NCBI RefSeq assembly: GCF_012273655.1
Contig: NZ_JAAWWP010000012.1
Coordinates: 124,001 to 188,000, forward strand
Origin: Streptomyces physcomitrii
Lineage (GTDB): Bacteria > Actinomycetota > Actinomycetes > Streptomycetales > Streptomycetaceae
Direction of reading: 5' to 3'
DNA length: 64,000 nucleotides
Position 1 is the stretch's first letter; each line of letters opens with the position of its first letter. The position numbers and the translations under genes are program-made. The notes under the pieces are model-generated. The model was not told the DNA's origin. It saw nothing but the letters and a program-made list of their open reading frames with translations, and did not search any database. Of this stretch, positions 28,147 through 46,246 are shown in pieces.

Positions 28147-28153
28147 GCGCCAG

Positions 28154-28176: not shown

Positions 28177-28240
28177 CGGCCGCATACCATCGACGGCAGC
28201 CCCTCTCGCCCTGCATGATCGGAGCGAGACCGGCTTCCGG

Positions 28241-28315
28241 ACCAAGAGCACCAAGAGCAGCACCAAGAGCACCAAGAAGACGAAGAACACGAAGAGCGCG
28301 AAGAGTACGAAGAGT
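28241..28315 (+). repeat. Eight tandem 9-bp purine-rich repeats
   Basis: Eight 9-base units of the form ACCAAGAGC drifting to ACGAAGAGT, with a three-base AGC insertion after the second. The tract is far less GC-rich than its surroundings, is non-coding, and ends 21 bases before the protease start. Confidence 0.85.
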
Positions 28316-28335
28316 TGCTTCGACGAGGGGACAGC

Positions 28336-30036
28336 GTGGACGAGAGCGGGCAGCCGCACCCCGGCGGCCACGGCGCGGACGACCACCGCGACCGGCCGGC
28401 GGGTTCGGACGGCGCCGACACCGGCTCCGCGTCTCCCGAAGCGGGCGGACAGGGGGGACCACCACCCGCCGGGGACCCGGCACCGCCGCGCGCGGAAAGG
28501 CCGGTCCCCCCGGCTGCGGAGGGCTCGGAACCACCGCCTGCCGAGGGCTCGGCGACCCCGCCCGCGGAGGGCCCGGCACCCCGGTCGGCGCAGGCCCCGG
28601 CACCCCCGCCTGCCGAGGACCCGGCGGAGAAGGGCGACCGCGGCACCGGCCAGGGCGACAGCGCCACCCGCCAGGGCGACAGCGGCCCCCGCCAAGGCGA
28701 CAGCGGCACCCCCCGCAACGGCGACGGCGGCACACCCCCGCCGCCCGCACCGGCCCCGCCCCCCGAGCCCGCGCCGCCGTCCTCCCCGGCCCCCTCGCCC
28801 TTCGGGTCCGCCCCGCAGGACGACCACGACCGCAGCCACGCCCGGGGCAATCCGCGGGGCGCCAAGCCGCCGTCCCGCCGACCCGAGCCCGGCGGCGGCA
28901 TCCTGATGGGCCGTCCCTTCGGCGTCCCGGTCTACGTGGCCCCCAGCTGGTTCCTGGTCGCCGTGCTCATCACCTGGGTCTTCGGCGAGCAGCTCGAACG
29001 CGTGCTGCCCGAACTCGGCGGCGCCCGCTATCTGGTCTCGCTCTTCTTCGCCGTCGCCTTCTACGCCTCGGTGCTCGTCCACGAGCTGGCCCACACCGTC
29101 GCCGCGCTCCGCTTCGAGCTGCCGGTGCGCCGGATCCAGCTCCAGTTCTTCGGCGGCGTCTCGGAGATCGAGAAGGAGTCGGAGACCCCCGGCCGGGAGT
29201 TCGTCCTCGCCTTCGTCGGACCGCTGCTCTCCCTGGTGCTCGCCGGGGTCTTCTACCTCGGCATGCTCGCCGTCGAGCCGGGCACGGTCCCCGGGGTGCT
29301 GCTCGCCGGACTGATGATCTCCAACCTCCTCGTCGCCGCCTTCAACCTGCTGCCCGGGCTGCCGCTGGACGGCGGCCGGATGCTGCGCGCCGTGGTCTGG
29401 AAGATCACCGGCAAGCCGATGAGCGGCACCGTCGCCGCGGCCTGGGTCGGCCGCGGCCTCGCCCTGTCCGTACTGGTCGGGCTGCCGCTGCTCACCCAGT
29501 CCGGCGCGCTCGGCGACGACGCCCAGGAGTTCGGTGGCTGGGACACCCTCACCGACGCCCTGCTCGCCGCGATCCTCGCCGGGATCATCTGGACCGGCGC
29601 CGGGAACAGCTTGCGGATGGCCCGGCTGCGCGAGCACCTGCCCGAACTCCGCGCCCGCACCCTGACCCGGCGTGCCGTCCCGGTCGCGTACGACACCCCG
29701 CTCTCGGAGTCGCTGCGCCGCGCCAACGACGCCGGGGCACGCGCCCTGGTGGTGGTCGACCCGGACGGCGAACCCCGCGCCCTGGTGCGGGAGGCCGCCA
29801 TCGTCGGCGTGCCGCAGCACCGGCGCCCCTGGGTCGCCGCGGGCAGCCTCTCCCAGGAGCTGAGCCCGGGCATGCTGGTCTCCGCCGAGCTGTCCGGCGA
29901 GGAGCTGCTCGACGTGCTGCGCGCCACCCCGGCCTCCGAGTACCTGGTGGTCGAGGAGTCCGGCGAGATCTACGGGGTGCTCTCCGCCGCCGATGTGGAG
30001 CGCGCCTTCGTCAAGGCGATGGCCCGCCCGAACTGA
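28336..30036 (+). CDS. Site-2-type membrane metalloprotease (M50) with CBS region
   Basis: A 566-residue intramembrane protease resembling mycobacterial Rip3. The first 190 or so residues are Pro/Gly/Glu-rich and disordered, with a repeated QGDS motif near residues 105-130. Membrane helices carry zinc-binding HELAH (His249, Glu250, His253) and the third ligand Asp345 in LPLDGGR. The last 130 residues resemble a CBS pair. Such enzymes cut membrane-bound anti-sigma factors or other membrane proteins; the substrate here is unknown. GTG at 28336 is preferred for its GAGGGG; a TTG at 28315 is in frame. Confidence 0.87.
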   Translation: MDESGQPHPGGHGADDHRDRPAGSDGADTGSASPEAGGQGGPPPAGDPAPPRAERPVPPAAEGSEPPPAEGSATPPAEGPAPRSAQAPAPPPAEDPAEKGDRGTGQGDSATRQGDSGPRQGDSGTPRNGDGGTPPPPAPAPPPEPAPPSSPAPSPFGSAPQDDHDRSHARGNPRGAKPPSRRPEPGGGILMGRPFGVPVYVAPSWFLVAVLITWVFGEQLERVLPELGGARYLVSLFFAVAFYASVLVHELAHTVAALRFELPVRRIQLQFFGGVSEIEKESETPGREFVLAFVGPLLSLVLAGVFYLGMLAVEPGTVPGVLLAGLMISNLLVAAFNLLPGLPLDGGRMLRAVVWKITGKPMSGTVAAAWVGRGLALSVLVGLPLLTQSGALGDDAQEFGGWDTLTDALLAAILAGIIWTGAGNSLRMARLREHLPELRARTLTRRAVPVAYDTPLSESLRRANDAGARALVVVDPDGEPRALVREAAIVGVPQHRRPWVAAGSLSQELSPGMLVSAELSGEELLDVLRATPASEYLVVEESGEIYGVLSAADVERAFVKAMARPN

Positions 30037-30156
30037 GCCCTGCCGCCCGCCGGCCCCCGGCGCCGGGCCCGACCGGAGTGCCCGGCCGGGGCCCGCGCGG
30101 GTCACCGCCCGTACACCTGGTCGGGGGCCCGCCGGCCGAAAGGTAGGCTGGGCCCC

Positions 30157-31059
30157 ATGTCCGAACCGACCGGTGCCGCCCGCCGTCGCGGGCCCTTCAA
30201 GGTCGGGGACCAGGTACAGCTGACCGATCCCAAGGGACGCCACTACACCTTCACGCTCGAAGCCGGGAAGAATTTCCACACCCACAAGGGTTCCTTCCCG
30301 CACGACGAGTTGATCGGTGCTCCCGAGGGCAGCGTCGTCCGCACCACGGGGAACGTCGCCTATCTGGCGCTGCGCCCCCTGCTCCCCGACTACGTCTTGT
30401 CCATGCCCCGCGGTGCCGCCGTGGTCTACCCCAAGGACGCGGGGCAGATCCTGGCCTTCGCGGACATCTTCCCCGGCGCCCGCGTCGTGGAGGCGGGGGT
30501 CGGCTCCGGCTCGCTGAGCAGCTTCCTGCTGCGCGCCATCGGCGACCACGGAATGCTGCACAGCTACGAGCGGCGCGCGGACTTCGCGGAGATCGCCCAG
30601 CAGAACGTCGAGCGCTACTTCGGCGGTCCGCACCCGGCCTGGCAGCTCACCGTCGGCGACCTCCAGGACAACCTCTCCGACAGCGAGGTCGACCGGGTCA
30701 TCCTGGACATGCTCGCCCCCTGGGAGTGCCTGGACGTCGTCTCCAAGGCGCTCGTCCCCGGCGGGATCGTCTGCTGCTACGTCGCCACCACCACCCAGCT
30801 CGCCCGTACCGTCGAATCCCTGCGCGAGATCGGCTGCTTCAACGAGCCGACCGCCTGGGAGTCCATGATCCGCAACTGGCACATCGAAGGACTCGCCGTG
30901 CGCCCCGATCACCGGATGATCGGCCACACCGGCTTCCTGCTCACCGCCCGGCGGCTCGCCGACGGCGTGGAGCCGCCGATGCGCCGCAGGCGGCCGGCCA
31001 AGGGCGCCTACGGCGAGGACTACGCCGGTCCCAACGCCGACGGCGGCACCCCGCGCTGA
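30157..31059 (+). CDS. trmI: tRNA (adenine-58-N1)-methyltransferase
   Basis: A 300-residue SAM-dependent methyltransferase making m1A58 in the tRNA T-loop. The SAM-binding VEAGVGSGSLSSFLL begins near residue 110; GKNFHTHKGSFPHDELIG and VILDMLAPWECLD are family signatures. TAGGCT at 30144-30149 ends seven bases before the ATG, with no ribosome-binding site, so a leaderless mRNA is likely. From memory it sits next to the proteasome ATPase gene in many actinobacteria, as here. A 20-bp-stem terminator follows. Confidence 0.94.
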   Translation: MSEPTGAARRRGPFKVGDQVQLTDPKGRHYTFTLEAGKNFHTHKGSFPHDELIGAPEGSVVRTTGNVAYLALRPLLPDYVLSMPRGAAVVYPKDAGQILAFADIFPGARVVEAGVGSGSLSSFLLRAIGDHGMLHSYERRADFAEIAQQNVERYFGGPHPAWQLTVGDLQDNLSDSEVDRVILDMLAPWECLDVVSKALVPGGIVCCYVATTTQLARTVESLREIGCFNEPTAWESMIRNWHIEGLAVRPDHRMIGHTGFLLTARRLADGVEPPMRRRRPAKGAYGEDYAGPNADGGTPR

Positions 31060-31080
31060 CCACCCTGCCCCTGCAACTCC

Positions 31081-31133
31081 CGGGCCCCGTGCCCGAGTTC
31101 CCGCCGCTCCGGTGAACTCGGCCACGGGGCCCG
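31081..31133 (+). terminator. Terminator after trmI
   Basis: Arms 31081-31100 and 31114-31133 pair over 20 positions with one mismatch, around a 13-base loop, 21 bases after the trmI stop. Confidence 0.8.
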
Positions 31134-31264
31134 CGCGTTGGCGTGTGCGCCCCTTCGCGCGCGGGTGCGTGCCGAAGAATGCGCCCCCGGCGTTCCGGCC
31201 GAGTGTGACGTATGGCACGATGCTGGCCATCCCCCGCCGGTACAGCCCCCAGGAGACGCTCCTA

Positions 31265-31843
31265 GTGCAGCAATCCGCCGTCCCGGAACTCGCGCACGCC
31301 ACCACCCGGCCCATCCACTGGGTGGCCACCGCCGCGGCCGTGGCCGCCGTGCTCGCCGGGTCCTCCTTCCTCCAGCCCGATCACGCCACGGCCGCCCAGC
31401 CGGACAAGGGCGGCGCCGCGCGCAGCACGCCGGTCGCCGCACCGGATCCGGACGGGGTGCGCTTCCCGCTGGACTGCGGTCCGGTGGCGGCGAAGGTGCA
31501 GCAGCGGGCCAGTGGGGACCTGGACGGCGACGGCAGACCGGAGACGGTGGCGGCGGTGCGCTGCGACGCCGGTTCGGGCAGCCCGCCGGACGGGGTCTAT
31601 GTGCTCACCCAGCCCTCCGGTAAGGGCGGGAAGCCGCGCGTGGTGGCGACCCTGCTCGACCCCAAGGACCGCGAGAACGCCACCGACTTGACCGTCCGCG
31701 ACGGACGCGTCGCGGCCACCCTCCTCGGCTACTCCTCGCCGGAGGTGCCCAGTTGCTGCCCCGACCAGAAGCAGAAGGTGAGCTGGCACTGGCAGGACGG
31801 CGCCTTCGCGCGCAGCACCGGGGACCAGGCCCGCACCGTGTGA
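31265..31843 (+). CDS. Exported hypothetical protein
   Basis: A 192-residue protein not recognised as a named family. An N-terminal hydrophobic segment (about residues 20-35, WVATAAAVAAVLAGSS) followed by ATAAQ suggests a signal peptide or anchor. The mature part has DLDGDGRPE, like calcium-binding FG-GAP/VCBS loops, and a CCP near the C-terminus that may pair with a Cys near residue 75. GTG at 31265 is chosen for AGGAGA upstream; an in-frame ATG at 31220 is possible. It converges with the ferredoxin gene across a large palindrome. Confidence 0.65.
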   Translation: MQQSAVPELAHATTRPIHWVATAAAVAAVLAGSSFLQPDHATAAQPDKGGAARSTPVAAPDPDGVRFPLDCGPVAAKVQQRASGDLDGDGRPETVAAVRCDAGSGSPPDGVYVLTQPSGKGGKPRVVATLLDPKDRENATDLTVRDGRVAATLLGYSSPEVPSCCPDQKQKVSWHWQDGAFARSTGDQARTV

Positions 31844-31886
31844 GGCACGCCACGGCCGGTCACCGTCCGTGGCGGGAATCCGACCA

Positions 31887-31950
31887 GAAGACGAGCACGA
31901 GAAGGGGCCCGGGACGCCGTCGACGGCGTCCCGGGCCCCGCCTCGTCTTC
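31887..31950. terminator. Large palindrome, bidirectional terminator
   Basis: A perfect 36-bp palindrome (31904-31939, 18-bp arms, no loop) is flanked by a further 9-bp inverted repeat (GAAGACGAG at 31887-31895 and CTCGTCTTC at 31942-31950). It lies between two convergent genes. Confidence 0.8.
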
Positions 31951-31969
31951 ACCTGGCGCGCTCGCGGAA

Positions 31970-32278
31970 TCACTCCGCGTCGGGCCCGTAGACCTCCACC
32001 TTGTCCGAAACCCGGCGTACGTGGATGCAGTCGCCCGGACACTCCTTGGCGGAGTCGCTGACATCCCTGAGGAGGGTCAGCGGTACGGGTGTTGCGGCCC
32101 CCGGGGCCTGCAGCAGCTCCTCGTCCGCGCCCTTGACGTAGGCGAGGCCGTCGATGTCCAGCTCGAAGACCTCGGGCGCGTACTCCGCGCAGATCCCGTC
32201 GCCCGTGCACAGGTCCTGGTCGATCCACACTTCGAGGTCGGCGCCGCCTGGTGCGGGCGCACCGCCTGGGTCCTGCAC
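31970..32278 (-). CDS. Ferredoxin, 3Fe-4S type
   Basis: A 102-residue small acidic electron carrier. Cluster cysteines are Cys24 and Cys30 (CTGDGIC) and Cys80 (ECPG); the position that would hold a fourth ligand in 4Fe-4S proteins is Asp27, indicating a 3Fe-4S cluster. A further cysteine, Cys84, replaces the usual alanine near the end. The N-terminal 15 residues are Gly/Pro/Ala-rich. GTG at 32278 with GGGAGA about eight bases upstream. It is divergent from arc; from memory, ferredoxins of this type usually serve P450s, but none is adjacent. Confidence 0.88.
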   Translation of the reverse strand: MQDPGGAPAPGGADLEVWIDQDLCTGDGICAEYAPEVFELDIDGLAYVKGADEELLQAPGAATPVPLTLLRDVSDSAKECPGDCIHVRRVSDKVEVYGPDAE

Positions 32279-32539
32279 GGTCTGTCTCCCTGCCGTTCGC
32301 GGTGCCGGGCGGCCCGGAAAAGGGTGCAAGTCGGGCCAGCTCCGACGGGTGTTGAACGCTTCGACGATACAACCGCCCGCTTTCCGCGGCCCTCAGGTGG
32401 GTATCCCCCTGGCGTGAGGGAGAGCGCAAGGGTGAAGATCGGACACACCCCGTCGGTCTTTGTGATCTAGGGGTTTCAATCGGCACCCACGCAGGTAGGG
32501 TCTGGAAGCGTCCAGCTCCCCTTGGAGGAGGTGAGGACC

Positions 32540-34312
32540 GTGGCAGCCCACGACGACGACATCAACCGCGGCATCCGCCCGGGACGAGGGTCCGAGGACC
32601 CTTCCGGTCAGATCGCCTATCTCGAGCAGGAAATCGCCGTCCTGCGACGTAAGCTCGCCGACTCTCCGCGGCACACGAGGATTCTCGAAGAGCGGATCGT
32701 CGAGCTGCAGAACAATCTGGCCGGCGTCTCCACCCAGAACGAACGGCTCGCCAATACGCTCCGTGAGGCCCGCGACCAGATCGTGGCCCTCAAGGAAGAG
32801 GTCGACCGGCTCGCACAGCCCCCCGCCGGTTTCGGTGTCTTCCTCCTGGCGAACGAGGACGGCACCGCCGACATCTTCACCGGGGGCCGCAAGCTCCGGG
32901 TGAACGTCAGCCCGAGCGTGCCCCTGGACGAGCTGCGGCGCGGCCAGGAGCTGATGCTCAACGAAGCGCTCAACGTGGTCGAGGCCATGGAGTTCGAGCG
33001 GGTCGGCGACATCGTCACGCTCAAGGAGATCCTGGAGGACGGCGAGCGCGCCCTCGTCCTCGGGCACACCGACGAGGAGCGGGTGGTCCGGCTCGCCGAG
33101 CCGCTGCTCGCCGAGGACGTCACCATCCGCCCCGGTGACGCGCTCCTCCTCGAACCCCGTTCGGGCTATGTCTACGAGGTCGTGCCCAAGAGCGAGGTCG
33201 AGGAGCTGGTCCTCGAAGAGGTCCCCGACATCAGCTACGACAAGATCGGCGGCCTCGGCGGCCAGATCGAGAGCATCCGCGACGCCGTGGAGCTCCCGTA
33301 CCTGTACCCGGACCTCTTCAAGGAGCACGAGCTGCGCCCGCCCAAGGGCGTCCTGCTCTACGGCCCTCCCGGCTGCGGAAAGACGCTGATCGCCAAGGCG
33401 GTCGCCAACTCCCTTGCCAAGAAGGTCGCCGAAGTCACCGGGCAGCCCGCCGGGAAGAGCTACTTCCTCAATATCAAGGGCCCGGAGCTGCTCAACAAGT
33501 ACGTCGGCGAGACCGAGCGGCACATCCGCCTGGTCTTCCAGCGGGCCCGGGAGAAGGCCAGCGAGGGCACCCCCGTCATCGTCTTCTTCGACGAGATGGA
33601 GTCCCTCTTCCGCACCCGCGGCTCCGGCGTCAGCTCCGACGTCGAGAACACCATCGTCCCGCAGCTGCTCGCGGAGATCGACGGTGTCGAGGGCCTGGAG
33701 AACGTCATCGTCATCGGCGCCTCCAACCGCGAGGACATGATCGACCCGGCGATCCTGCGCCCCGGGCGCCTCGACGTGAAGATCAAGATCGAGCGGCCCG
33801 ACGCCGAGGCGGCCAAGGACATCTTCGGCAAGTACCTCACCGAGCGGCTCCCGCTGCACGCGGACGACCTCGCGGAGCACGGCACCGACAAGGCCGCCAC
33901 GGTGGACGCGATGATCCAGTCCACGGTCGAGGCGATGTACGCCGAGTCCGAGGAGAACCGCTTCCTCGAAGTCACGTACGCCAATGGCGACAAGGAAGTC
34001 CTGTACTTCAAGGACTTCAATTCCGGCGCCATGATCGAGAACATCGTCGGCCGGGCCAAGAAGATGGCGATCAAGGCCTTCCTGGAACAGAACCAGAAAG
34101 GTCTGCGGGTCGCCCATCTCCTGCAGGCCTGCGTGGACGAGTTCAAGGAGAACGAGGACCTGCCGAACACCACCAACCCCGACGACTGGGCCCGTATCTC
34201 CGGAAAGAAGGGCGAGCGGATCGTCTACATCCGTACGCTCGTCACCGGAAAGCAGGGCGCGGACACGGGACGTTCCATCGACACGGTGGCGAACACCGGT
34301 CAGTACCTGTAA
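32540..34312 (+). CDS. arc: Proteasome-associated AAA ATPase ARC (Mpa)
   Basis: A 590-residue ring-forming ATPase that recognises pupylated proteins, unfolds them and feeds them to the 20S proteasome. Order: N-terminal coiled coil binding Pup (about 20-95), OB domains (about 95-240), AAA domain with Walker A GPPGCGKT (from 275) and Walker B FFDEMES (Asp351). It ends GQYL, the penultimate-tyrosine tail that docks on PrcBA. GTG at 32540 after a GGAGGAGG-type site; a TAGGGT -10 lies at 32496-32501. A canonical terminator follows, so dop is probably transcribed separately. Confidence 0.96.
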
Positions 34313-34323
34313 AAGAACGGGTC

Positions 34324-34368
34324 GGCTGCGGATGCCCCGCGGTGGGGCATCCGCAGCCGCCTGTTTTT
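34324..34368 (+). terminator. Intrinsic terminator after arc
   Basis: A perfect 15-bp stem (34324-34338 and 34344-34358, GCGGT loop) followed by TTTTT at 34364-34368. A U-tract this clear is unusual for Streptomyces. Confidence 0.88.
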
Positions 34369-34416
34369 CTCCCCGGATCCGGTCAGGGCGAATTCCGGCT
34401 GGCCGAGGAGAAGCAA

Positions 34417-34568
34417 TGACGCAAATGATCTCCCCACCGGAGCCATGGCGTTCTAGGCTCGACGGTACCGCTGAGCCGCGCGGTGCGGGGTCGGGCACCG
34501 CACAGCAGGAGCGGTACGTGAGCGTCGTTCCCGCACGGGAGCGCCGCCGGGCAAGGAGGGCCGCATGA
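34417..34568 (+). CDS. Possible 50-residue leader peptide before dop
   Basis: An ATG at 34417 follows a strong AGGAGAAG site and opens a 50-codon frame whose TGA overlaps the dop ATG in ATGA. The product starts [11 protein letters not shown] and has a very basic end ([10 protein letters not shown]). It has no recognised domain. Against it, a TAGGCT hexamer at 34454-34459 could be the dop -10, which would put transcription downstream of this start. It may be a small gene coupling translation of dop, or a chance frame. Confidence 0.35.
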
Positions 34569-36076
34569 CCGTACGGCGAGTAATGGGCATCGAGACGGAG
34601 TACGGGATCTCCGTCCCCGGTCACCCCAACGCCAATGCCATGCTCACCTCGTCCCAGATCGTCAACGCCTACGCGGCGGCGATGCACCGGGCCAGGCGGG
34701 CCCGCTGGGACTTCGAGGAGGAGAACCCGCTGCGCGACGCGCGAGGCTTCGACCTCGCCAGGGAGGCCGCGGACTCCAGTCAGCTCACCGACGAGGACAT
34801 CGGCCTCGCCAATGTGATCCTGACCAACGGTGCCCGGCTCTACGTCGACCACGCCCACCCCGAGTACAGCGCGCCCGAGGTCACCAACCCGCTCGACGCC
34901 GTCCTCTGGGACAAGGCGGGCGAGCGCATCATGGCCGAGGCCGCGGAGCGGGCCGGGGCGCTCCCGGGCGCCCAGCCCATCCACCTGTACAAGAACAACA
35001 CGGACAACAAGGGCGCCTCCTACGGCACCCACGAGAACTACCTGATGAAGCGGGAGACCGCCTTCTCGGACATCGTGCGCCACCTGACCCCCTTCTTCGT
35101 CTCCCGCCAGGTCGTCACCGGCGCCGGACGCGTGGGACTCGGCCAGGACGGCCACGAGCACGGCTTCCAGCTCAGCCAGCGCGCCGACTACTTCGAGGTC
35201 GAGGTCGGCCTGGAGACCACGCTGAAGCGGCCCATCATCAACACCCGCGACGAGCCGCACGCCGACGCGGAGAAGTACCGCCGGCTGCACGTGATCATCG
35301 GGGACGCCAACCTCTCCGAGATCTCGACGTACCTCAAGCTCGGCACCACCGCGCTGGTCCTGTCCATGATCGAGGACGGCTTCATCGCCGTGGACCTCGC
35401 CGTGGACCAGCCCGTCCGCACCCTGCACCAGGTCTCCCACGACCCCACCCTGAGCCACCTGGTCACGCTCCGCAGCGGCCGCACACTCACTGCGGTCCAG
35501 CTCCAGATGGAGTACTACGAGCTGGCCAGGAAGTACGTGGAGGAGCGCTGGGGCGCGGACGCCGACGAGCAGACCAAGGACGTCCTGGCCCGCTGGGAGG
35601 ACGTGCTCGGCCGCCTGGAGAGCGACCCGATGAGCCTGTCCGGGGAGCTCGACTGGGTCGCCAAGCGCGAGCTGATGGAGGGCTACCGGCGCCGCGACGG
35701 CCTCGACTGGGACGCGGCCCGGCTGCATCTGATCGACCTCCAGTACGCCGACGTACGCCCCGACAAGGGCCTCTACAACCGACTGGTGGAGCGCGGCAAG
35801 ATCAAGCGGCTGCTGGACGAGGGCCGGGTCGAGCGCGCCGAGAGCCAGCCGCCGGAGGACACCAGGGCCTACTTCCGCGGCCGCTGCCTGGAGCAGTACG
35901 CGGACGACGTGGCCGCCGCCTCCTGGGACTCGGTCATCTTCGACCTGCCGGGTCACGACTCCTTGCAGCGCGTGCCCACCCTGGAACCGCTGCGCGGCAC
36001 CAGGGACCACGTCAAGGAGCTCCTGGACCGCTGCCGTACGGCGGAGGAGCTGGTCCGGGTGCTGTCCGGCAGGTGA
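34565..36076 (+). CDS. dop: Pup deamidase/depupylase
   Basis: A 503-residue ligase-like enzyme that converts the C-terminal Gln of Pup to Glu and removes Pup from targets. Glutamine-synthetase-like fold: GIETEYGIS near the start, catalytic Asp95 in [13 protein letters not shown], and [11 protein letters not shown]. The extra Dop-specific loop ([18 protein letters not shown]) distinguishes it from PafA, whose gene is at 41110. ATG at 34565 overlaps the stop of the small upstream frame. pup follows 164 bases later with its own promoter. Confidence 0.96.
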
Positions 36077-36161
36077 TCCGGTGGCCGGGATCCGGTCTGA
36101 AAGGTGCGGCTGCCGGGAATCATCGGGATGGCTCCCGGACGTTGCAAGAACAGCGGGGCCG

Positions 36162-36184
36162 ATGTCAGTCCCTGCTTGTAGGGT
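36162..36184 (+). promoter_or_regulatory. Candidate PafBC/RecA-NDp-type promoter of pup
   Basis: ATGTCAGTC, eight bases, TAGGGT: the inner TGTCAGT is intact, 7 of 9 upstream positions match TTGTCRGTG, and the -10 and spacing are exact. Transcription would start near 36191, giving pup a leader of about 50 bases. Confidence 0.5.
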
Positions 36185-36240
36185 CTGATCTTGTACGACT
36201 GCGCAGCGCGCAGTACGTCGAACCGAGCGGGGTGAGGTGT

Positions 36241-36459
36241 ATGGCGACCAAGGACACCGGCGGCGGACAGCAGAAGGCCACGCGTCCCACCGAGGACGTC
36301 GAGGAGCAGACCGAGGAAGCACAGGGCTCCGAGGACCTCAAGGAGCGCCAGGAGAAGCTGAGCGACGACGTCGACTCGGTCCTGGACGAGATCGACGACG
36401 TCCTGGAGGAGAACGCCGAGGACTTCGTGCGGTCGTTCGTGCAGAAGGGCGGCCAGTAG
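36241..36459 (+). CDS. pup: Prokaryotic ubiquitin-like protein Pup
   Basis: A 72-residue, acidic, intrinsically disordered tag that is attached by an isopeptide bond to lysines of target proteins. It ends GGQ, so Dop must deamidate it to GGE before PafA can ligate it. The coiled-coil-forming middle (about residues 30-60, ERQEKLSDDVDSVLDEIDDV) is the ARC-binding part. ATG at 36241 with GAGGTG close upstream. It lies between dop and prcB, with a candidate DNA-damage promoter upstream. Confidence 0.97.
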   Translation: MATKDTGGGQQKATRPTEDVEEQTEEAQGSEDLKERQEKLSDDVDSVLDEIDDVLEENAEDFVRSFVQKGGQ

Positions 36460-36818
36460 GGTCCGCCCGGCTCCGGACGGCGCGGACCGCCGACCGGAGC
36501 GGACCGGTGTCCGGTACGCCGTGACACCCACCCGGCAAGGCGGTGCCCTCGCGGCACCGGCGCGGGGCCGAGGCGGCCGCCGCGACCGGTGCCGCGGCGG
36601 GCCCGCCCCCTGAGCGGCGTGCCCGCGGGCCGCGGGACGGCCCGCCCGCCGCGAAGAACGAGTCCCGCAGCGCGAGAAGAGTCCTTCGGCCGAACATGTG
36701 GATCACCGCCTCAACGCGGGTAGGGTCGGGGCGTACTCAACTGCAATTCGGCCATCGGCGAGTTGGGAACCGCGTCCCAGCATGTGAGCCGGGCTGTCGC
36801 CTACTTGGAAGGAATCGT
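36460..36818 (+). other. pup-prcB interval with probable prcBA promoter
   Basis: 359 bases. TAGGGT at 36721-36726 is a probable -10 for prcBA with a leader near 85 bases. A small hairpin (GGTGCC/GGCACC, 36541-36559) lies after pup. No intervening gene was recognised; I recall other Streptomyces having a small endonuclease-like gene here, which appears absent. Confidence 0.5.
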
Positions 36819-37664
36819 GTGGAAGCCAATCCCCGAAGCACCGGGCGTCTGCCGGCTGCCTTCCTGACGCCTGGGTCCTCCTCCTTCATGGACTTCCTGA
36901 CCGAGCACCAGCCGGAGGTCCTGCCGGGCAACCGGCAGCTGCCGCCCGTGCAGGGCACCGTCGAGGCCCCGCACGGCACCACCATCGTGGCTGCCAGCTT
37001 CCCCGGCGGGGTCGTCCTCGCCGGTGACCGCAGGGCCACCATGGGCAATGTGATCGCCCAGCGCGACATCGAGAAGGTCTTCCCGGCGGACGAGTACTCC
37101 GCGGTCGGCATCGCCGGCACCGCGGGCCTGGCCGTGGAGATGGTGAAGCTCTTCCAGCTGGAGCTGGAGCACTTCGAGAAGGTCGAGGGCGCCCAGCTCT
37201 CCCTGGAGGGCAAGGCCAACCGGCTCTCCACCATGATCCGCTCCAACCTCGGCATGGCCATGCAGGGCCTCGCCGTGGTGCCGCTCTTCGCGGGCTTCGA
37301 CGTCGACCGCGGCAAGGGCCGGATCTTCTCGTACGACGTGACCGGCGGCCGTTCCGAGGAGCGGGGCTTCGCGGCCACCGGCTCCGGCTCGGTCTTCGCC
37401 CGCGGCGCCATGAAGAAGCTCTTCCGCGAGGACCTCACCGAGGACCAGGCCGTCACCCTGGTCGTCCAGGCGCTCTACGACGCGGCCGACGACGACTCGG
37501 CGACCGGCGGCCCCGATCTGCCCCGGCGGATCTTCCCGATCGTCACCGTGATCACCGAGGACGGTTTCCGAAAGCTCACCGAGGAGGAGTCCTCCGCGGT
37601 CGCCCGCTCGATCGTGGAGCGGCGCCAGGAGCAGCCGGACGGCCCGCGCGCGGAACTGCTGTGA
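36819..37664 (+). CDS. prcB: 20S proteasome beta subunit
   Basis: A 281-residue catalytic subunit, the length I recall for S. coelicolor PrcB. A 53-residue propeptide (to HG) is removed so that Thr54 becomes the N-terminal nucleophile of mature [11 protein letters not shown]. Lys and Asp residues of the active site follow in [16 protein letters not shown] at 36819 with GGAAGGA about five bases upstream. It forms an operon with prcA (62-base gap). The mature subunits form the two inner heptamer rings. Confidence 0.96.
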
Positions 37665-37726
37665 CGCGCCGCGGTCACTGATCCCCCGACTCCCCAGCTC
37701 CACCGACAGAAAGGGACGGACAGCCG

Positions 37727-38500
37727 GTGTCGACGCCGTTCTATGTCTCACCCCAGCAGGCCATGGCCGACCGGGCGGAGTACGCCCGCAAGGGCATCGC
37801 ACGCGGTCGCAGCCTGGTCGTGCTGCAGTACGCCGACGGCATTGTCTTCGTCGGTGAGAACCCGTCCCGTGCGCTGCACAAGTTCAGCGAGATCTACGAC
37901 CGGATCGGCTTCGCGGCCGCCGGCAAGTACAACGAGTACGAGAACCTCCGCATCGGCGGTGTCCGCTACGCCGACCTGCGCGGGTACACCTACGACCGCG
38001 ACGACGTGACCGCCCGCGGCCTCGCCAACGTCTACGCCCAGACGCTGGGCACCATCTTCTCCAGCGCGGCCGAGAAGCCGTACGAGGTGGAGCTGGTGGT
38101 CGCCGAGGTGGGGGAGAGCCCCGAGGGCGACCAGATCTACCGGCTGCCGCACGACGGCTCGATCGTGGACGAGCACGGCTCGGTCGCGGTCGGCGGCAAC
38201 TCCGAGCAGATCAGCACCTATCTCGACCAGCAGCACCGGGACGGCATGACGCTCGCCGAGGCGCTGCGGCTCGCCGTGCAGGCGCTCTCCCGGGACACCA
38301 ACGGCGGGGAGCGGGAGATCCCCGCCGAGCGTCTGGAGGTCGCGGTGCTGGACCGGACCCGGCCCCAGCAGCGGAAGTTCAAGCGGATCGTCGGCGGCCA
38401 GCTGGTCCGGCTGCTCGGCGGCGACTCCTCGGCTGCCTCCGAGGAGGAGGACGAGGACGGCGGCAAGGGCGAGGGCAAGGACGGCGACTCCGCGAAGTAG
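37727..38500 (+). CDS. prcA: 20S proteasome alpha subunit
   Basis: A 257-residue subunit of the outer gating rings. It has [31 protein letters not shown] at the N-terminus (gate and first helix) and the alpha-type core without a catalytic Thr. The last 25 residues are Glu/Asp/Gly-rich and disordered. GTG at 37727 with AAAGGGA some way upstream. Second gene of prcBA; a 15-bp hairpin ends the operon, splitting it from the LacI/MFS insertion and pafA. Confidence 0.96.
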
Positions 38501-38522
38501 CCCGCCCCGCAGCAGTACATAT

Positions 38523-38557
38523 CCGCATGCCCCGGCCGCACCGGCCGGGGCATGCGG
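38523..38557. terminator. Terminator after prcA
   Basis: A perfect 15-bp stem (38523-38537 and 38543-38557) with a GCACC loop, 22 bases after the prcA stop and before the convergent LacI gene. Confidence 0.85.
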
Positions 38558-38609
38558 CGTCCCGCGCCGTCAGCCGGCTCGTACGACCGGGAGCGCGCCG
38601 ACCGGTCGG

Positions 38610-39659
38610 TCAGTCCCCGCGTGCTCCGGGCGGCGCGGTAGAGCCCCGTACCACCAGGCGGGCCGGGAGGGTGAGCGGCGCGGGGCGTTCGCCGTCGAGG
38701 ACGGTGAGCAGGGTGCGCATGCCCTGGCGGCCGAACTCCTCGGCGGGCAGATGCACGGTGGTCAGCTCGGGATCCAGCGCGCCCGCGAGCATGACGTCGT
38801 CGAAGCCGGTGACCGACAGATCCTCGGGGACCCGCAGCCCGAGCCGCCGGGCGGCCTTCAGCGCCCCGGCCGCGAGCAGGTCGTCGTCGCAGACCAGCGC
38901 CGTGGGCGGGGGGCCCGGGGCGCCGAGTGCGGACCCGGCGGCCTCCCGGGCGCCCGCGACGGAGAGCGGGGTGGGCGCGGTGCGCAGCTCGGCGCCCGCC
39001 TCGGCGAGCCGCTCGGCGAGCATCCGGGCGCGTACCCGGAAGGTCCAGCTGTCGATGTCCGCGGCCAGATGCAGAAAGCGCCGGTGCCCGAGCGCGAGCA
39101 GATGGTCCGCGACCTGGCGCATGCCCTCCGCGATGCCGAGGTTGACCAGGGCGGCGCCCCGGCTGTCGGCGGGGTCGCTGTCGAGCATCACCAGCGGCAG
39201 CTCGTCGCCGCGGATGGCGGCCAGCGCCTCGGCGGCCATCGAGGAGGCGATCACGCCGTCCAGGAGGGCGCGGGCGGAGTCGAAGGGGTCCCGGGCCGGG
39301 CCGACGCCGCCGGGGGAGGGGTACAGGACGACGCCGAAGCCGTGGTCGGCGGCGACCTCGGCCGCGCCGGTGTAGACCCGGGCGAAGAACTCGTTGGTGA
39401 GCGCGGGGACGACGAGCAGCGCGGTGCGGGTGCGGCCGAGGCGGAGATTGCGGGCGGCGAGGTTCGGCCGGTAGCCGAGCGTCCGGGCGCTCTCCCGGAC
39501 CCGATCGGCGGTGGCCTCGGACACCCGCCCGCGCCACTTCTCGCCGAGCACCAGCGAGACGGCGGCCTGCGAGACCCCGGCGGCGCGGGCGACGTCCCGG
39601 CTGGTGGGTCGGGCGGCGGCGGGACGGCCGGCTCCCCCCTCCGGTGCGGCGTGCCTCAC
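38610..39659 (-). CDS. LacI-family transcriptional regulator
   Basis: A 349-residue regulator. The N-terminal helix-turn-helix (TSRDVARAAGVSQAAVSLVLG, about residues 15-40) and hinge precede a periplasmic-binding-like sensor domain ending DVMLAGALDPELTTVHLP. The effector is unknown, probably a sugar or nucleoside by family. GTG at 39659 with GGAGG upstream. It is divergent from the MFS transporter, and the pair interrupts the Pup-proteasome cluster, so it probably controls that transporter. Confidence 0.9.
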   Translation of the reverse strand: MRHAAPEGGAGRPAAARPTSRDVARAAGVSQAAVSLVLGEKWRGRVSEATADRVRESARTLGYRPNLAARNLRLGRTRTALLVVPALTNEFFARVYTGAAEVAADHGFGVVLYPSPGGVGPARDPFDSARALLDGVIASSMAAEALAAIRGDELPLVMLDSDPADSRGAALVNLGIAEGMRQVADHLLALGHRRFLHLAADIDSWTFRVRARMLAERLAEAGAELRTAPTPLSVAGAREAAGSALGAPGPPPTALVCDDDLLAAGALKAARRLGLRVPEDLSVTGFDDVMLAGALDPELTTVHLPAEEFGRQGMRTLLTVLDGERPAPLTLPARLVVRGSTAPPGARGD

Positions 39660-39772
39660 GGGTGCCTCCGTCGTAGGTCGTCGGTGTCGGGTCCGGTGTT
39701 CCGGGGCTCGGCACGCCCGCCCGGCGGGTGCGCGGGGCGGGCGGCCGAGTGGACTCCGGGTGGGCCTCATGG

Positions 39773-39800
39773 TACGTATGGGTGGCGACGTTATACGTAT
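39773..39800. promoter_or_regulatory. Paired TACGTA palindromes between the LacI and MFS genes
   Basis: TACGTA occurs at 39773-39778 and again inside ATACGTAT at 39793-39800, centres 21 bp apart, in a locally AT-rich divergent promoter. Two helical turns of spacing would suit a LacI-type regulator. Confidence 0.4.
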
Positions 39801-39840
39801 TACTGATCATCCGCCGTGAGGGTGGGGGAGAGGGCCGGGG

Positions 39841-41100
39841 ATGGCGGCGGGGTATCTGGAGATCCTCAGGGCACGGCACGCGGCCAGGCTGCTCACGGGC
39901 ACCCTGGTCGGAAGGCTGCCCAATGCCACGGCCGCGATCGCGATCGTGCTCTTCCTCCGCGCGGAGGGCGGCAGCTACAGCCTCGCCGGGGCGCTGGCCG
40001 CGGTGTACGGGGTGGCCAACGCGGTCGGGCAGCCCCTCCTCGGCCGCCTCGTCGACCTGTACGGACAGCCCCGGGTGCAACTGCCCGCCGCGCTCGCCTC
40101 GGCGCTCGCCATGTCCGCCTTCGCCTTCACCGGGCCCTCGGCCCTCGGCGCCGCCTACCCGACGGTCGCCCTCGCCGGGCTGCTCACCCCGCCCCTCGAA
40201 GGCGGACTGCGCGCCCTGTGGTCCGACGTCCTGGACCGCGAGGAACAGGTGCACACCGCCTACGCGATGGACGCCGTGGCGCAGGAGGTCATGTTCACCG
40301 TGGGCCCCCTGCTCATCACCCTCTTCGTCTCGCTCTGGTCGGCCCAGGGCGCCCTGCTGCTGCTCAGCCTCATCGGGGTGCTCGGGGCGCTCTCGGTGGT
40401 CGTCTCGGAGCCCTCCCGGCGCTGGCGCAGCGCGCCCCGCGAGGCCCACTGGCTGGGCGCGCTGCGCTCACCGGGGCTGCTCGCGCTGCTCGGCGCCCTG
40501 CTCTTCGTGGGCATGGCGCTCGGCTCCATCGCGGTCGCCGGGGTCGCCTACGCCGACGAGAACGGCGGCGACTCCGTCTACGGCTGGATCATGGCGGGCA
40601 TCGGCTTCGGCGCGCTGCTCGGCGGATCGGTCTACGGGGCGCGGCAGTGGAGCGGGGAGCCGCACCGGCGGCTGGCCGTCCTGGTCGCCCTTCTGACGGT
40701 CTGCTACCTCCCCCTGGTGCTGACCCCGGGTCCGGTGGCGATGACCCTGCTCTCGGTGCTCGCGGGCGTCTTCCTGGCGCCGTGCATCGCCTGCGCCTTT
40801 GTCCTGGTCGACCGGCACGCCCCGCGCGGCACCGTCACCGAGGCCTTCTCCTGGCTGGTGACCACCTTCACGGTGGGCACGGCGGTGGGCACCGCCGCCG
40901 CCGGGCCGGTGGTCGAATGGGGCGGGATCCGCCCGGGATTCGCGGTCCCGGCGATCGTCGGAGCCCTGGCCCTGCTGGTCGTGGCGGCCACCGCGCGGGT
41001 GCTCGCGGCGCCCTCGAAGAGCGCTCTGGTGGCCCGCGGTTCGGAAAATGATCGAAACGGTGCCGCCGAACCCGGTTTGGGTACACGCCGTCAGGCGTAA
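39841..41100 (+). CDS. MFS transporter
   Basis: A 419-residue membrane protein with about twelve hydrophobic segments and the MFS loop-2/3 motif variant GQPLLGRLVDLYGQPRV near residues 60-75. Substrate unknown; export is as likely as import. ATG at 39841 after a purine-rich GGGGGAGAGGG. Its stop lies nine bases before the pafA ATG, so the pafA promoter must overlap its end. With the divergent LacI gene it forms a unit inserted between prcA and pafA. Confidence 0.88.
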   Translation: MAAGYLEILRARHAARLLTGTLVGRLPNATAAIAIVLFLRAEGGSYSLAGALAAVYGVANAVGQPLLGRLVDLYGQPRVQLPAALASALAMSAFAFTGPSALGAAYPTVALAGLLTPPLEGGLRALWSDVLDREEQVHTAYAMDAVAQEVMFTVGPLLITLFVSLWSAQGALLLLSLIGVLGALSVVVSEPSRRWRSAPREAHWLGALRSPGLLALLGALLFVGMALGSIAVAGVAYADENGGDSVYGWIMAGIGFGALLGGSVYGARQWSGEPHRRLAVLVALLTVCYLPLVLTPGPVAMTLLSVLAGVFLAPCIACAFVLVDRHAPRGTVTEAFSWLVTTFTVGTAVGTAAAGPVVEWGGIRPGFAVPAIVGALALLVVAATARVLAAPSKSALVARGSENDRNGAAEPGLGTRRQA

Positions 41101-41103
41101 TGT
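41098..41103 (+). promoter_or_regulatory. Candidate -10 of pafA
   Basis: TAATGT ends six bases before the pafA ATG at 41110; no ribosome-binding site is visible. This fits a leaderless pafA transcript initiated at the end of the MFS gene. No convincing -35 was found. Confidence 0.4.
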
Positions 41104-41109
41104 TCAGTC

Positions 41110-42471
41110 ATGGACCGCCGCATTTTCGGGCTGGAGAACGAGTACGGCGTCACATGCACGTTCAGGGGACAGCGCCGCCTGTCTCCTGACGAGGTGGCGC
41201 GGTACCTCTTCCGCCGTGTCGTGTCATGGGGCCGCAGCAGCAATGTCTTTCTGCGCAACGGCGCCCGCCTCTACCTCGACGTGGGATCGCACCCGGAATA
41301 CGCAACTCCCGAATGCGACAACGTGACGGAACTCGTCACCCACGACAAGGCCGGCGAGCGCATTCTGGAAGGCCTGCTGGTCGATGCCGAACGCCGCCTG
41401 CACGAGGAGGGAATCGCGGGCGACGTCTATCTCTTCAAGAACAACACAGACTCGGCGGGAAACTCCTACGGCTGCCACGAGAACTATCTCGTCGCGCGGC
41501 ACGGTGAGTTCTCGCGGCTCGCGGACATCCTCATTCCGTTCCTGGTGACGCGCCAGCTCATCTGCGGCGCGGGCAAGGTGCTGCAGACGCCGCGCGGTGC
41601 GGTGTACTGCGTGAGCCAGCGGGCCGAGCACATCTGGGAGGGCGTCAGCTCCGCGACGACCCGCTCCCGTCCGATCATCAACACCCGCGACGAGCCGCAC
41701 GCGGACGCCGAGCGCTACCGCAGGCTCCACGTCATCGTGGGCGACTCCAACATGTCCGAGACGACCATGCTCCTGAAGGTCGGCGCCACCGACCTCGTAC
41801 TGCGCATGATCGAGGCGGGCACCGTCATGCGTGACCTCACCCTGGAGAACCCGATCCGGGCCATCCGCGAGGTCAGCCACGACACCACCGGACGCCGCAA
41901 GGTGCGCCTGGCGAGCGGCCGCGAGGCCTCCGCCCTGGAGATACAGCGCGAGTACTTCGAGAAGGCCGCCGACTTCGTCGACCGGCGCGGCATCCGCACC
42001 GGCACCGTGGCGCAGGTCCTCGAACTCTGGGAGCGCACCCTCGACGCGATCGAGCAGGAGGACCTCGACCGCATCGGCACCGAGATCGACTGGGTCATGA
42101 AGTACAAGCTCATCGAGCGGTACCGCGAGAAGCACAACATGACCATGTCGCACCCGCGGGTCGCGCAGATAGACCTCGCCTACCACGACATCCACCGCCG
42201 CCGCGGCCTCTACTACCTCCTGGAGAAGAAGGGCCAGGCCACCCGTATCTGCAGCGACTTGAAGATCTTCGAGGGCAAGTCGGTGCCCCCGCAGACCACT
42301 CGGGCCCGGCTGCGCGGCGACTTCATCCGCCGGGCGCAGGAGCAGCGCCGGGACTTCACGGTCGACTGGGTCCACCTGAAGCTCAACGACCAGGCGCAGC
42401 GCACCGTGCTGTGCAAGGACCCCTTCCGTTCGGTCGACGACAGGGTGGAAAAGCTCATCGCCGGCATGTGA
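41110..42471 (+). CDS. pafA: Pup ligase PafA
   Basis: A 453-residue enzyme that phosphorylates the C-terminal Glu of Pup with ATP and joins it to target lysines. Glutamine-synthetase-like fold: [18 protein letters not shown], catalytic Asp57 in [15 protein letters not shown], and [11 protein letters not shown]. It lacks the Dop-type loop. It is a paralogue of dop at 34565. No ribosome-binding site; a probable leaderless start (see -10). A 17-bp-stem hairpin follows. Separated here from prcBA by the LacI/MFS pair. Confidence 0.97.
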
Positions 42472-42507
42472 GTTCACCCCATCCGGTGAGGGTGGGCCGG
42501 GAACGTC

Positions 42508-42548
42508 ACGCGAGGCGTCGTACGTTGTGTGCGTACGACGCCTCGCGT
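42508..42548 (+). terminator. Terminator after pafA
   Basis: A 17-bp stem (42508-42524 with 42532-42548) and a seven-base loop, 37 bases after the pafA stop. Confidence 0.8.
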
Positions 42549-42687
42549 CGCCTCTGCCGTGCGGCACGGCGGACCCCGCAGGGGAGCGGGCCGGGACATC
42601 CGGGCTCTCCCGGGCCCAAGACGCCGCTTTCGTCAGTAAGGTGGCGCGCACGCCCACCACAAGATCGATCGATACGAGGCCCCCACC

Positions 42688-43683: not shown

Positions 43684-43738
43684 GTCCCGGGATGCGAGAC
43701 TGTCCCGGTTGTCATCCGCACCAACAGGAGCAAGTGAC

Positions 43739-44113
43739 GTGAGCATCGACAAGCCCGAGGTCGACTTCCCGGGCGGCGAGCCCCCGGCCGACCTCGAGAT
43801 CAAGGACATCACGGTCGGCGACGGCCCCGAGGCCAAGGCGGGGGACACCGTCTCCGTCCACTACGTGGGCGTGGCCTTCTCCAGCGGCGAGGAGTTCGAC
43901 GCCAGCTGGAACCGCGGTACCCCGCTCCAGTTCCAGCTGGGCGCGGGCCAGGTCATCAGCGGCTGGGACCAGGGGGTGCAGGGCATGAAGGTCGGCGGCC
44001 GCCGGCAGCTGACCATCCCGGCCCACCTCGCCTACGGTGACCGCGGCGCCGGTGGCGGCCGCATCAAGCCGGGCGAGACCCTGATCTTCGTCTGCGACCT
44101 GGTCGCCGTCTGA
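43739..44113 (+). CDS. FKBP-type peptidyl-prolyl cis-trans isomerase
   Basis: A 124-residue single-domain cytoplasmic FKBP. It has VHYVG, FDASWNRGTPLQFQLGAGQVISGWDQG and IPAHLAYGDRGAGG, the standard drug-binding and active-site strands. GTG at 43739 with AGGAG about ten bases upstream. It lies 55 bases after the lipoprotein FKBP and probably shares its transcript. A hairpin with TTTT follows. Confidence 0.94.
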   Translation: MSIDKPEVDFPGGEPPADLEIKDITVGDGPEAKAGDTVSVHYVGVAFSSGEEFDASWNRGTPLQFQLGAGQVISGWDQGVQGMKVGGRRQLTIPAHLAYGDRGAGGGRIKPGETLIFVCDLVAV

Positions 44114-44261: not shown

Positions 44262-45233
44262 ATGGCCATTGCCAAGGCCGAGCGGCTCATGAACCTCGCG
44301 CTGTGCCTCCTCGGCACACGCCGGGCGCTGAGCAAGCGCGAGCTGCGTGACTCCATCGAGGCCTACGTCGAGGCCTTCCAGCGGGGTTCCGCCGGCTCCG
44401 AGGAGTCCTTCAACCGGATGTTCGAGCGGGACAAGGACGATCTGCGCGAACTCGGCCTGGTCATCGAGACGGTGGAGAACCTCGACGGCGACGTCGGCTA
44501 TCTGGCCCGCCGGGACAGCAACCGCCTGCCGCCCGTCGCCTTCGACCCCGAGGAGGCGGCGGCCCTCGGCCTCGCCGCCAAGGTCTGGCAGCAGGCGCGC
44601 CTCGCCGGTGCCGCGAGCGGCGCCCTGCAGAAGCTGCGCGCCGCGGGTCTGCCCGAGGAGACCGGACCCGAGTCCACCCACGGCGCCCTCGAACCCCGGA
44701 TCCCCGTGCACGAGAGCGCCTTCGAACCGCTGATGCTGGCCTGCCGCGACCGCAGGCCGGTCGCCTTCGACTACCGCAAGTCCAACGCGGTGCGCCCCGA
44801 GCCCCGCCAGGTCGAGCCCTGGGCCCTGGAGTGCTGGCGCGGCCACTGGTATCTGGCCGGATTCGACCGGGACCGCGGCGCCGAGCGGGTCTTCCGGCTC
44901 TCCCGGATCACCGGCAAGGTGCGCAGCAGGGCGGGCCGGTTCACCGCCGAGGTGCCCGATGTGGTCACGGTGCGCGAGACCGTCGCGAGCTGGGCCGGGG
45001 AGGGCGGCGAGGGCACCGCCAGGATCCGGCTGCGCACCGGCTCCGGCTACCCGCTGCGGGCCAGGGCCCTGTCGGTGCGCGAACTCGGCGACGGCTGGGA
45101 CGAGTTGGAGATCCCGTACGGCCGCGGTCTGGACGCCTGGCTGGTGGAGTTCGGGCCGGACGCGGTGGTGCTCGGTCCCGCGGAGCTGCGGGCCGATGTG
45201 GTGGACCGGCTGCGTGCCGTGGCCAAGGGCTGA
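44262..45233 (+). CDS. pafB: DNA-damage regulator subunit PafB
   Basis: A 323-residue WYL-domain regulator. The N-terminal winged helix-turn-helix (about residues 1-75, MAIAKAERLMNLALCLLGTRRALSKREL) precedes a WYL domain (HWYLAGFDRDRGAERVFRLSRI, about 205-225) and a WCX-type C-terminal domain. In mycobacteria PafB and PafC act together as the LexA-independent activator of DNA-damage genes. ATG at 44262 with GAGGAAGGG upstream. It is followed 11 bases later by pafC, so the pair is co-expressed. Confidence 0.94.
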   Translation: MAIAKAERLMNLALCLLGTRRALSKRELRDSIEAYVEAFQRGSAGSEESFNRMFERDKDDLRELGLVIETVENLDGDVGYLARRDSNRLPPVAFDPEEAAALGLAAKVWQQARLAGAASGALQKLRAAGLPEETGPESTHGALEPRIPVHESAFEPLMLACRDRRPVAFDYRKSNAVRPEPRQVEPWALECWRGHWYLAGFDRDRGAERVFRLSRITGKVRSRAGRFTAEVPDVVTVRETVASWAGEGGEGTARIRLRTGSGYPLRARALSVRELGDGWDELEIPYGRGLDAWLVEFGPDAVVLGPAELRADVVDRLRAVAKG

Positions 45234-45244
45234 GGGGGAGCGAA

Positions 45245-46246
45245 GTGACTGCCGGACCCGCGCGTATCGCCCGCCCCGCGAACGCCATCGACCAGACCCG
45301 CCGGATGCTCTCCCTGGTGACCTACCTCAAGGAGCGCCCGGGGGCCCGGGTGGCCGACGTGGCCCGCGCCTTCGGGGTCAGCGAGGACGAGCTGATCAGC
45401 GACCTCGACGTACTGCCCCTGTGCGGGACCAGCTTCCGCGGCGGCGATCTGCTCGACATCGACACCGACGGCGAACACATCTGGTGGCACAACGTCGACG
45501 ACGTGGCCGAGCCGCTGCGCCTGGCCGCCGACGAGGCGACCGCGCTGCTGGTCGCCGCACGCGCCGTGGCCACCCTGCCCGGGCTGCGCGAGAGCGACCG
45601 CGGGGCCCTGCTGCGGGCCACCGCGAAGCTGGAGGCCGCGGCCGGGGAGGCGGCCGGGGCCAGCGCCCGGCTCTCGGTGACCTTCGAGTCCGAGGGCGGC
45701 GTCTTCGCCGATGTCGACCGGGCCATCTCCGAGCGGCGGCGGCTGTGGATCCGCTACTACTCGCCCGCCCGCGACGAGCTCTCCGACCGCGAGATCGACC
45801 CGATCCGCCTGGTCAGCATCGGGCACACCTATGTGGAGGCCTGGTGCCGCCGCTCCGAGGCGCGGCGGACCTTCCGCCTCGACCGGGTGGCCGAGATCAA
45901 GGTCCTCGACGAGCCCTCCGAGCCGCCCGAGGTGGAGCTGCGCGACCTCTCCGAGGGCCTGGTGCAGCCCGCCGCCGAGGACCCGGAGGTGGTGGTCGAG
46001 GTGGGCCCCGGCGGCCGCTGGGTCGCCGAGTACTACCCGCACGACAGCGCCGAGGAACTGCCCGACGGCGGGCTGCGGATCAGCCTGCGCGCCCCCGACC
46101 CGGGCTCGCTGCGCCGCCTCGCCCTGCGGCTCGGCCAGGACGGCCGGATCGTCGCGCCCCGGGAGCTGGCCGACAGCGCCCGGGACGCCGCCCGCCGGGC
46201 CCTCGCCGCCTACGACGGGCTCGACGCGGACCGGGAGCGGCTGTGA
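45245..46246 (+). CDS. pafC: DNA-damage regulator subunit PafC
   Basis: A 333-residue paralogue of PafB: N-terminal helix-turn-helix (MLSLVTYLKERPGARVADVARAFGVSEDEL), WYL domain (YVEAWCRRSEARRTFRLDRVAEI, about residues 195-220) and C-terminal domain. It pairs with PafB to bind RNA polymerase and the -26 region of PafBC promoters. GTG at 45245 with GGGGGAG just upstream. Its stop overlaps the GTG of the next small gene. Several matches to the PafBC promoter pattern lie in this window. Confidence 0.94.
   Translation: MTAGPARIARPANAIDQTRRMLSLVTYLKERPGARVADVARAFGVSEDELISDLDVLPLCGTSFRGGDLLDIDTDGEHIWWHNVDDVAEPLRLAADEATALLVAARAVATLPGLRESDRGALLRATAKLEAAAGEAAGASARLSVTFESEGGVFADVDRAISERRRLWIRYYSPARDELSDREIDPIRLVSIGHTYVEAWCRRSEARRTFRLDRVAEIKVLDEPSEPPEVELRDLSEGLVQPAAEDPEVVVEVGPGGRWVAEYYPHDSAEELPDGGLRISLRAPDPGSLRRLALRLGQDGRIVAPRELADSARDAARRALAAYDGLDADRERL

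Follow-up and report, generated by a model that had tools for sequence, protein, structure and literature searches.

The window (the whole 64,000-nucleotide stretch of Streptomyces physcomitrii DNA analysed here) carries a Pup-proteasome gene cluster in which a peptidyl-prolyl isomerase gene accompanies arc, dop, pup, two proteasome subunit genes, pafA, pafB and pafC (Table 1). Both genes of the PafBC regulator are present in this genome and, as stated in a preliminary description of the window, lie in the same cluster as pup; we recovered them by homology and domain content. Between the end of dop (36076) and the ATG of pup (36241) are 164 bases, which house the element considered here.

Table 1. 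Features of the pup locus (positions within the window).
Feature	Position	Strand	Basis or remark
arc, proteasome ATPase (start approximate)	32522..34312	+	TIGR03689
dop, depupylase	34565..36076	+	TIGR03688
SigR-like element GGGAAT-N19-CGTT	36115..36143	+	AAT and CGTT bases 70-93% conserved, anchored genus set
Conserved GGGGCCGA abutting the core 5', at the place expected for a -35 hexamer	36155..36162	+	genus alignment
Candidate PafBC/RecA-NDp-type promoter of pup: TGTCAG (36163-36168), N10, -10 TAGGGT (36179-36184)	36163..36184	+	exact frame, conserved in genus
Imperfect inverted repeat TCAGTCCC-N8-GGGTCTGA over core and -10	36165..36188	+	perfect in species with TCAGACCC
Bases after the core, TCCC in this strain (site base 7 = 36169)	36169..36172	+	ACC in 111/134 genus sites
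pup, prokaryotic ubiquitin-like protein, 72 aa	36241..36459	+	TIGR03687
ORF with proteasome subunit, prcB by position (start approximate)	36543..37664	+	PF00227
prcA, proteasome alpha subunit	37727..38500	+	TIGR03691
pafA, Pup ligase	41110..42471	+	TIGR03686
pafB by position and homology, WYL and WCX domains	44262..45233	+	homology, domains
pafC, HTH_PafC, WYL and WCX domains (start approximate)	45233..46246	+	PF19187, PF13280, PF25583

On the plus strand this gap reads ATGTCAGTC at 36162-36170, then eight bases, then TAGGGT at 36179-36184; letters, N8 spacing and -10 are exactly as first described. Counted from the core, the arrangement on the pup strand is TGTCAG-N10-TAGGGT, with 56 bases separating the end of the -10 from the pup ATG. 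Assuming that the transcript starts about 7 bases past TAGGGT, the leader would measure about 50 bases, in agreement with the earlier estimate, and both orientation and distance fit the gene. The PafBC motif of Mycobacterium tuberculosis is reported as TGTCGG, TGTCAG or TGTCAC followed by N10-TA-N3-T (PMC8151990), and the pup site matches the frame TGTCRG-N10-TA-N3-T of this published motif exactly. Compared with the longer TTGTCAGTG-N8-TANNNT it displays exactly two mismatches, at bases 1 and 9, as had been pointed out, and thus departs in two of nine bases from the full nonamer, which PMC5656591 gives as tTGTCRgtg (lower case being taken as less conserved bases). This mismatch was not counted as excluding the PafBC class, since the recA and radA sites of a genome from another family (G186) deviate likewise.

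The surroundings of the -10 agree with such an assignment. A scan of 36000-36300 gave no sigma-70-like promoter with a -35, and PafBC-class promoters characteristically lack a consensus -35; a TTGACA-like -35 situated 16-18 bases 5' of the -10, the mark of a housekeeping promoter, is absent at pup. The SOS box of LexA has the form GAAC-N4-GTTC. No match to it with ≤1 mismatch was detected in 27955-43908, and control of pup by LexA was discarded for want of a box near the gene.

Loose matching to the nonamer is uninformative: at ≤3 mismatches the window contains 7 matches against 5.97 expected, a chance-level yield for which such matches were dropped as evidence and which vindicates the original caution that the resemblance was suggestive only. 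The exact frame TGTCRG-N10-TANNNT, by comparison, occurs 73 times in this genome against 5 occurrences of the reversed pattern. An ATG or GTG lies 5-10 bases past the -10 in 44 of the 72 sites that were read (of 73), as in leaderless messages. Within the window the only four exact matches start at 36163, 49702, 28154 and 706, and it is in terms of this exact frame that arc, dop and prcBA do lack the motif, as had been claimed.

Two forms of the site can be told apart by the bases that follow the core. T comes next in 49 of the 73 genome sites and is itself followed by G in 43 of those 49, which corresponds to the published TG form. A second form, TGTCRGACC, has 11 members in the exact frame; when TGTCRGACC was combined with TANNNT at any of 21 spacings, 13 copies were retrieved, 11 of them at exactly N7. 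This is the same core-to--10 distance as in the TG form, from which we conclude that the ACC form is real. In 79 sampled genomes of the class Actinomycetes, the ACC form numbers 203 sites versus 8 controls and the TG form 933 sites versus 35; in five Streptomyces genomes (G000, G013, G056, G067, G087) there are 266 TG-form sites versus 7 controls. As to the other exact matches of the window, the TG-form site at 28154-28175 (minus strand) stands 7 bases before an ORF for a PD-(D/E)XK nuclease, and of those at 706-727 (minus strand) and 49702-49723 (plus strand) one precedes a RecD2-type HHH ORF and one, in AGG form, a DEAD-box helicase ORF.

The preliminary description had also proposed conservation of the motif upstream of pup in other Streptomyces as a check. 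We assembled a genus sample of 80 named loci (all but two labelled Streptomyces) and 70 of the 149 pup-bearing genomes of the genus, the latter comprising the 30 nearest by Pup sequence (own genome included) and, in order to offset the bias towards close relatives, 40 from the bottom of the list. The exact frame is found in 134 of 146 distinct pup upstreams (150 read) and never in antisense orientation, against a mean of 0.035 after shuffling (first-order resampling, 200 rounds); the bottom-of-list set taken alone yields 36/40. All 12 upstreams without the exact frame keep TAGGGT, and they are one (8 cases), two (3) or five (1) bases away from TGTCRG. The -10 and the start codon lie 36-122 apart, depending on the upstream, which fits a promoter whose parts shift as one unit; no other exact site flanks pup within up to 3 kb on each side in the 80 named loci.

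These alignments change the reading of the site. Directly behind the core, 115 of the 134 sites have A, 8 have G, 6 have C and 5 have T, and each of the next two bases is C in 131/134; TGTCRGACC in full is present at 111 sites and the TG form at none. The genus therefore normally has the ACC form at pup, from which the T of the window most plausibly departs by a single change. The intact TGTCAGT core emphasised at the outset is consequently misleading, and the heptamer was rejected as evidence: 43 of the 49 TGTCRGT sites continue with a G that pup lacks, and A replaces the T in most of the genus.

Outside the genus the picture is patchier. Pup is encoded in 68 of the 79 class genomes, and TGTC[AG][GC]-N10-TANNNT precedes it in 13 of these, distributed over six families, with no antisense match and a shuffle mean of 0.05 (500 rounds); five of the 13 come from the genus of the window. 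Two members of one family (G186 and G203 of family f18) possess the canonical TGTCGGTGG form ahead of pup, three members of another (G188, G205 and G220 of family f19; loci L234, L235 and L226) possess TGTCAC-N10-TAGGGT, and G187 has TGTCGC, which falls outside the three M. tuberculosis variants. The remaining 55 loci are devoid of an exact site; among them, G198 supplies no more than 26 upstream bases, and G200 is anchored inside the gene. By eye, a locus of yet another family (L216 in G156, family f8) carries AGTCGG-N10-TAGGGT ahead of pup, one base off the frame. As a general pup element, TGTCRGACCNNNNNNGTAGGGT was abandoned, being no better than control at ≤3 mismatches (62 versus 56).

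Genes of DNA repair stand behind many of the sister sites. Five of the 11 ACC-form sites of this genome have repair genes downstream: four lie ahead of exonuclease III, a SCO1167-type helicase, ligA and sbcD (L149, L154, L156 and L157, respectively) and the fifth ahead of ruvC, where a RuvA-matching frame adjoins downstream. The other six precede an ABC transporter, a CobW protein, a hydrolase, a DUF2797 protein and two proteins without family. Among the 34 of 43 TG-form sites examined, 12 have a replication or repair protein downstream as judged from Pfam domains (AlkZ-like, RecD2-type HHH, PD-(D/E)XK nuclease, MgsA/RarA, RecA, an endonuclease/exonuclease-family protein, UvrD, RadA, DnaX, UvrB, O6-methylguanine methyltransferase and DNA polymerase III alpha; RadA being so labelled from its protein domains). 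A site in which the core is followed by T and then C, as at the pup of this strain, lies ahead of a UvrD-type helicase gene (L117). The association recurs at the ACC-form sites of other genomes, with endonuclease IV, UvrA and RecQ genes behind three of nine in G205, UvrA, RecA and RadA behind three of nine in G186, and two nuclease genes behind two of three in G177. The earlier suggestion of a DNA-damage promoter at pup thus survives in part: a conserved, promoter-like site of the PafBC/RecA-NDp type, with repair genes behind many of its sisters, does precede the gene, and the evidence for it resides in the TGTCRG-N10-TANNNT frame in its ACC form, not in the heptamer.

The main reason for placing the pup site in the PafBC class is that orthologous promoters swap forms. 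In recA and radA the TG form of this genome is replaced by the ACC form in G186; for pup the reverse is seen, G186 having the TG form and Streptomyces usually the ACC form. Upstream of ruvC (33 Streptomyces taken, 30 of them from a 61-genome set; 32 read) the exact frame is present in all 32, as the TG form in 29, AGG in 1, CGC in 1 and ACC in the genome of the window; across the class it was found at 9 of 69 ruvC loci, five of the nine being from Streptomyces. The PD-(D/E)XK nuclease gene has the TG form here and the ACC form in G177, the orthology of this pair being presumed. Were the two forms read by separate factors, orthologous promoters should keep their form, which recA, radA, ruvC and pup do not; one regulator most likely reads both.

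The alternative is that the ACC form is read by another regulator of the same architecture, such as a paralogous WYL-domain activator, in which case pup would answer a different or partly overlapping signal. We regard this as rather unlikely, although several observations speak for it. The first base past the core is associated with its neighbour (T with G, A with CC; Fisher p 0.0004), GGCC precedes the core at 6 of this genome's 11 ACC-form sites, and some genomes have TG-form sites and no ACC-form ones (15 and 0 in G165, 14 and 0 in G195). Moreover, the PafB profile matches at 1e-20 in 73 of the 79 class genomes (some in fragments), and five of the six genomes without such a match hold ACC-form sites, 11 in total against 1 control (G164, G177, G197, G206, G213 and G216, with 0, 3, 2, 2, 1 and 3 sites at a completeness of 78, 100, 86, 78, 76 and 91%). 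Besides the swapping itself, however, the published M. tuberculosis motif (PMC8151990) leaves the bases after the core open, and the GGCC extension is not general (1/9 in G205, 0/9 in G186, 2/3 in G177). The PafB-less genomes, for their part, are mostly incomplete, four of the six reaching only 76-86%, and G206 among them has 13 TG-form sites.

Still less probable, in our opinion, is that TAGGGT serves as nothing more than the -10 of a housekeeping promoter that transcribes pup constitutively, with TGTCRG bound by something unrelated to damage or conserved for some other reason. That TAGGGT occurs ahead of pup without an exact TGTC site in several other families, and is kept by each of the 12 frame-less upstreams of the genus sample, is in line with such a promoter, as is the fact that conservation extends beyond the motif (GGGGCC before and CTGATC after the pup site in the genus set), so that other factors may act there. 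The inverted repeat that spans the site, TCRGACCC-N8-GGGTCTGA in its genus version, could perhaps be the operator of another factor or form an RNA structure; with positions counted from 0 and G-T accepted as a pair, two of its eight pairs, 6-21 and 9-18, are broken in 11 and 14 of the 134 sites without a restoring change, and pair 4-23 in 12/134. Against a constitutive promoter count the lack of any sigma-70-like promoter with a -35 in 36000-36300 and the exact 10-base spacing between core and -10, which the pup site has in common with 72 other sites of the genome. Least credible is that the SigR-like element is the main driver of pup under thiol stress and the TGTC element a minor one, since, for all the conservation of its AAT and CGTT at fixed spacing and the elevated pup and pafA2 transcripts reported for Corynebacterium glutamicum lacking the anti-SigH factor (PMC3489674), its spacer of 19 is two longer than the peak spacing of this genome (17) and departs from the S. 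coelicolor consensus GGGAAT-17-CGTTG quoted in that paper, the start mapped there ahead of the C. glutamicum pup resembled a SigA promoter, and a SigR promoter would in any case not exclude a damage promoter. The gene may possess tandem thiol-stress and DNA-damage promoters.

The results computed here, namely a conserved element resembling a promoter, the genome-wide class to which it belongs, the repair genes downstream of its sister sites and the TG/ACC swapping, together indicate that in Streptomyces pup most likely belongs to the PafBC (RecA-NDp) regulon. PafBC is described as acting by sigma adaptation, through which the housekeeping polymerase is reprogrammed, with single-stranded DNA as the trigger (PMC11804915); several proteins of its regulon are pupylated and removed after damage (PMC8223512); and SCO6735 of S. 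coelicolor, preceded by a RecA-NDp promoter, is reported to be induced fivefold by UV (PMC5087735). From these published observations we infer that pup would be induced by damage in a PafBC-dependent manner, PafBC being the presumed binder, single-stranded DNA the signal, sigma adaptation the mode of action and clearance the purpose; pup would thus rise with the repair genes and supply the tag for removal of their products. Upon damage, PafBC loaded with single-stranded DNA would bind TGTCRG in the spacer and enable the housekeeping holoenzyme to use TAGGGT without a consensus -35. The pup mRNA would then increase together with those of recA, uvrB, ruvC, ligA and others, and the surplus of Pup would help to remove repair proteins after repair has been completed. 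We consider this account of the pup element, as a PafBC-class promoter that raises pup mRNA with the repair genes and thereby provides Pup for clearance, to be a good deal likelier than the contrary. For the more specific proposition that PafBC induces the tag directly through the ACC form, and that the response to damage thereby carries the means of its own termination, repair proteins and tag rising together, our preference is slight.

Such an arrangement may not be general. In M. smegmatis, under the conditions tested, PafBC was reported to be without influence on pupylation or on proteasome components (PMC5656591), a result that, for that organism, speaks against control of pup by PafBC. 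The same 2017 paper calls the link between pafBC and the Pup genes elusive. If correct, our reading would explain, for Streptomyces, why pafBC accompanies the Pup genes; it would place tag supply and DNA repair under one switch and open the puzzle of pafBC in the Pup locus to direct testing. In addition, the PafBC regulon would grow by the ACC form, as a search with the gtg consensus would miss the ligA, sbcD, exonuclease III and ruvC sites of this genome. PMC9380542 reports that S. venezuelae has not conserved the PafBC motif of M. smegmatis; the TG-form sites counted above in five Streptomyces genomes, among which S. venezuelae is not knowingly included, bear on this remark and are at odds with it in spirit. 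In the open-access literature searched, we found neither an account of this pup promoter nor any mapped transcript start or expression measurement for pup in Streptomyces, although an earlier mention in subscription papers is possible. Judged by titles, the same literature contained nothing on the promoter of SCO1646, which we take to be the pup of S. coelicolor, and no promoter paper combining TGTCAGACC with Streptomyces.

The closest known counterparts of the pup site are the mycobacterial RecA-NDp promoters and recA P1, which depend on PafBC. Like these, it consists of TGTCRG, 10 bases and TANNNT, has no detectable -35 and keeps the company of repair genes; it differs in that the gene behind it encodes the tag Pup and in that ACC (TCC in this strain) takes the place of gtg in most of the genus. 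The RecA-NDp promoter of SCO6735 (PMC5087735, PMC9411070) belongs to the same genus and promoter class, but the gene that it drives encodes a macrodomain hydrolase and not Pup. Stress control of pup has a precedent in C. glutamicum, where SigH is reported to govern pup and pafA2 (PMC3489674), and a similar GGGAAT/CGTT pair lies upstream of pup in the window; that system, as described, is however a network of an ECF sigma factor, whereas the tag supply of Streptomyces, as the pup site suggests, would be tied to DNA damage through PafBC.
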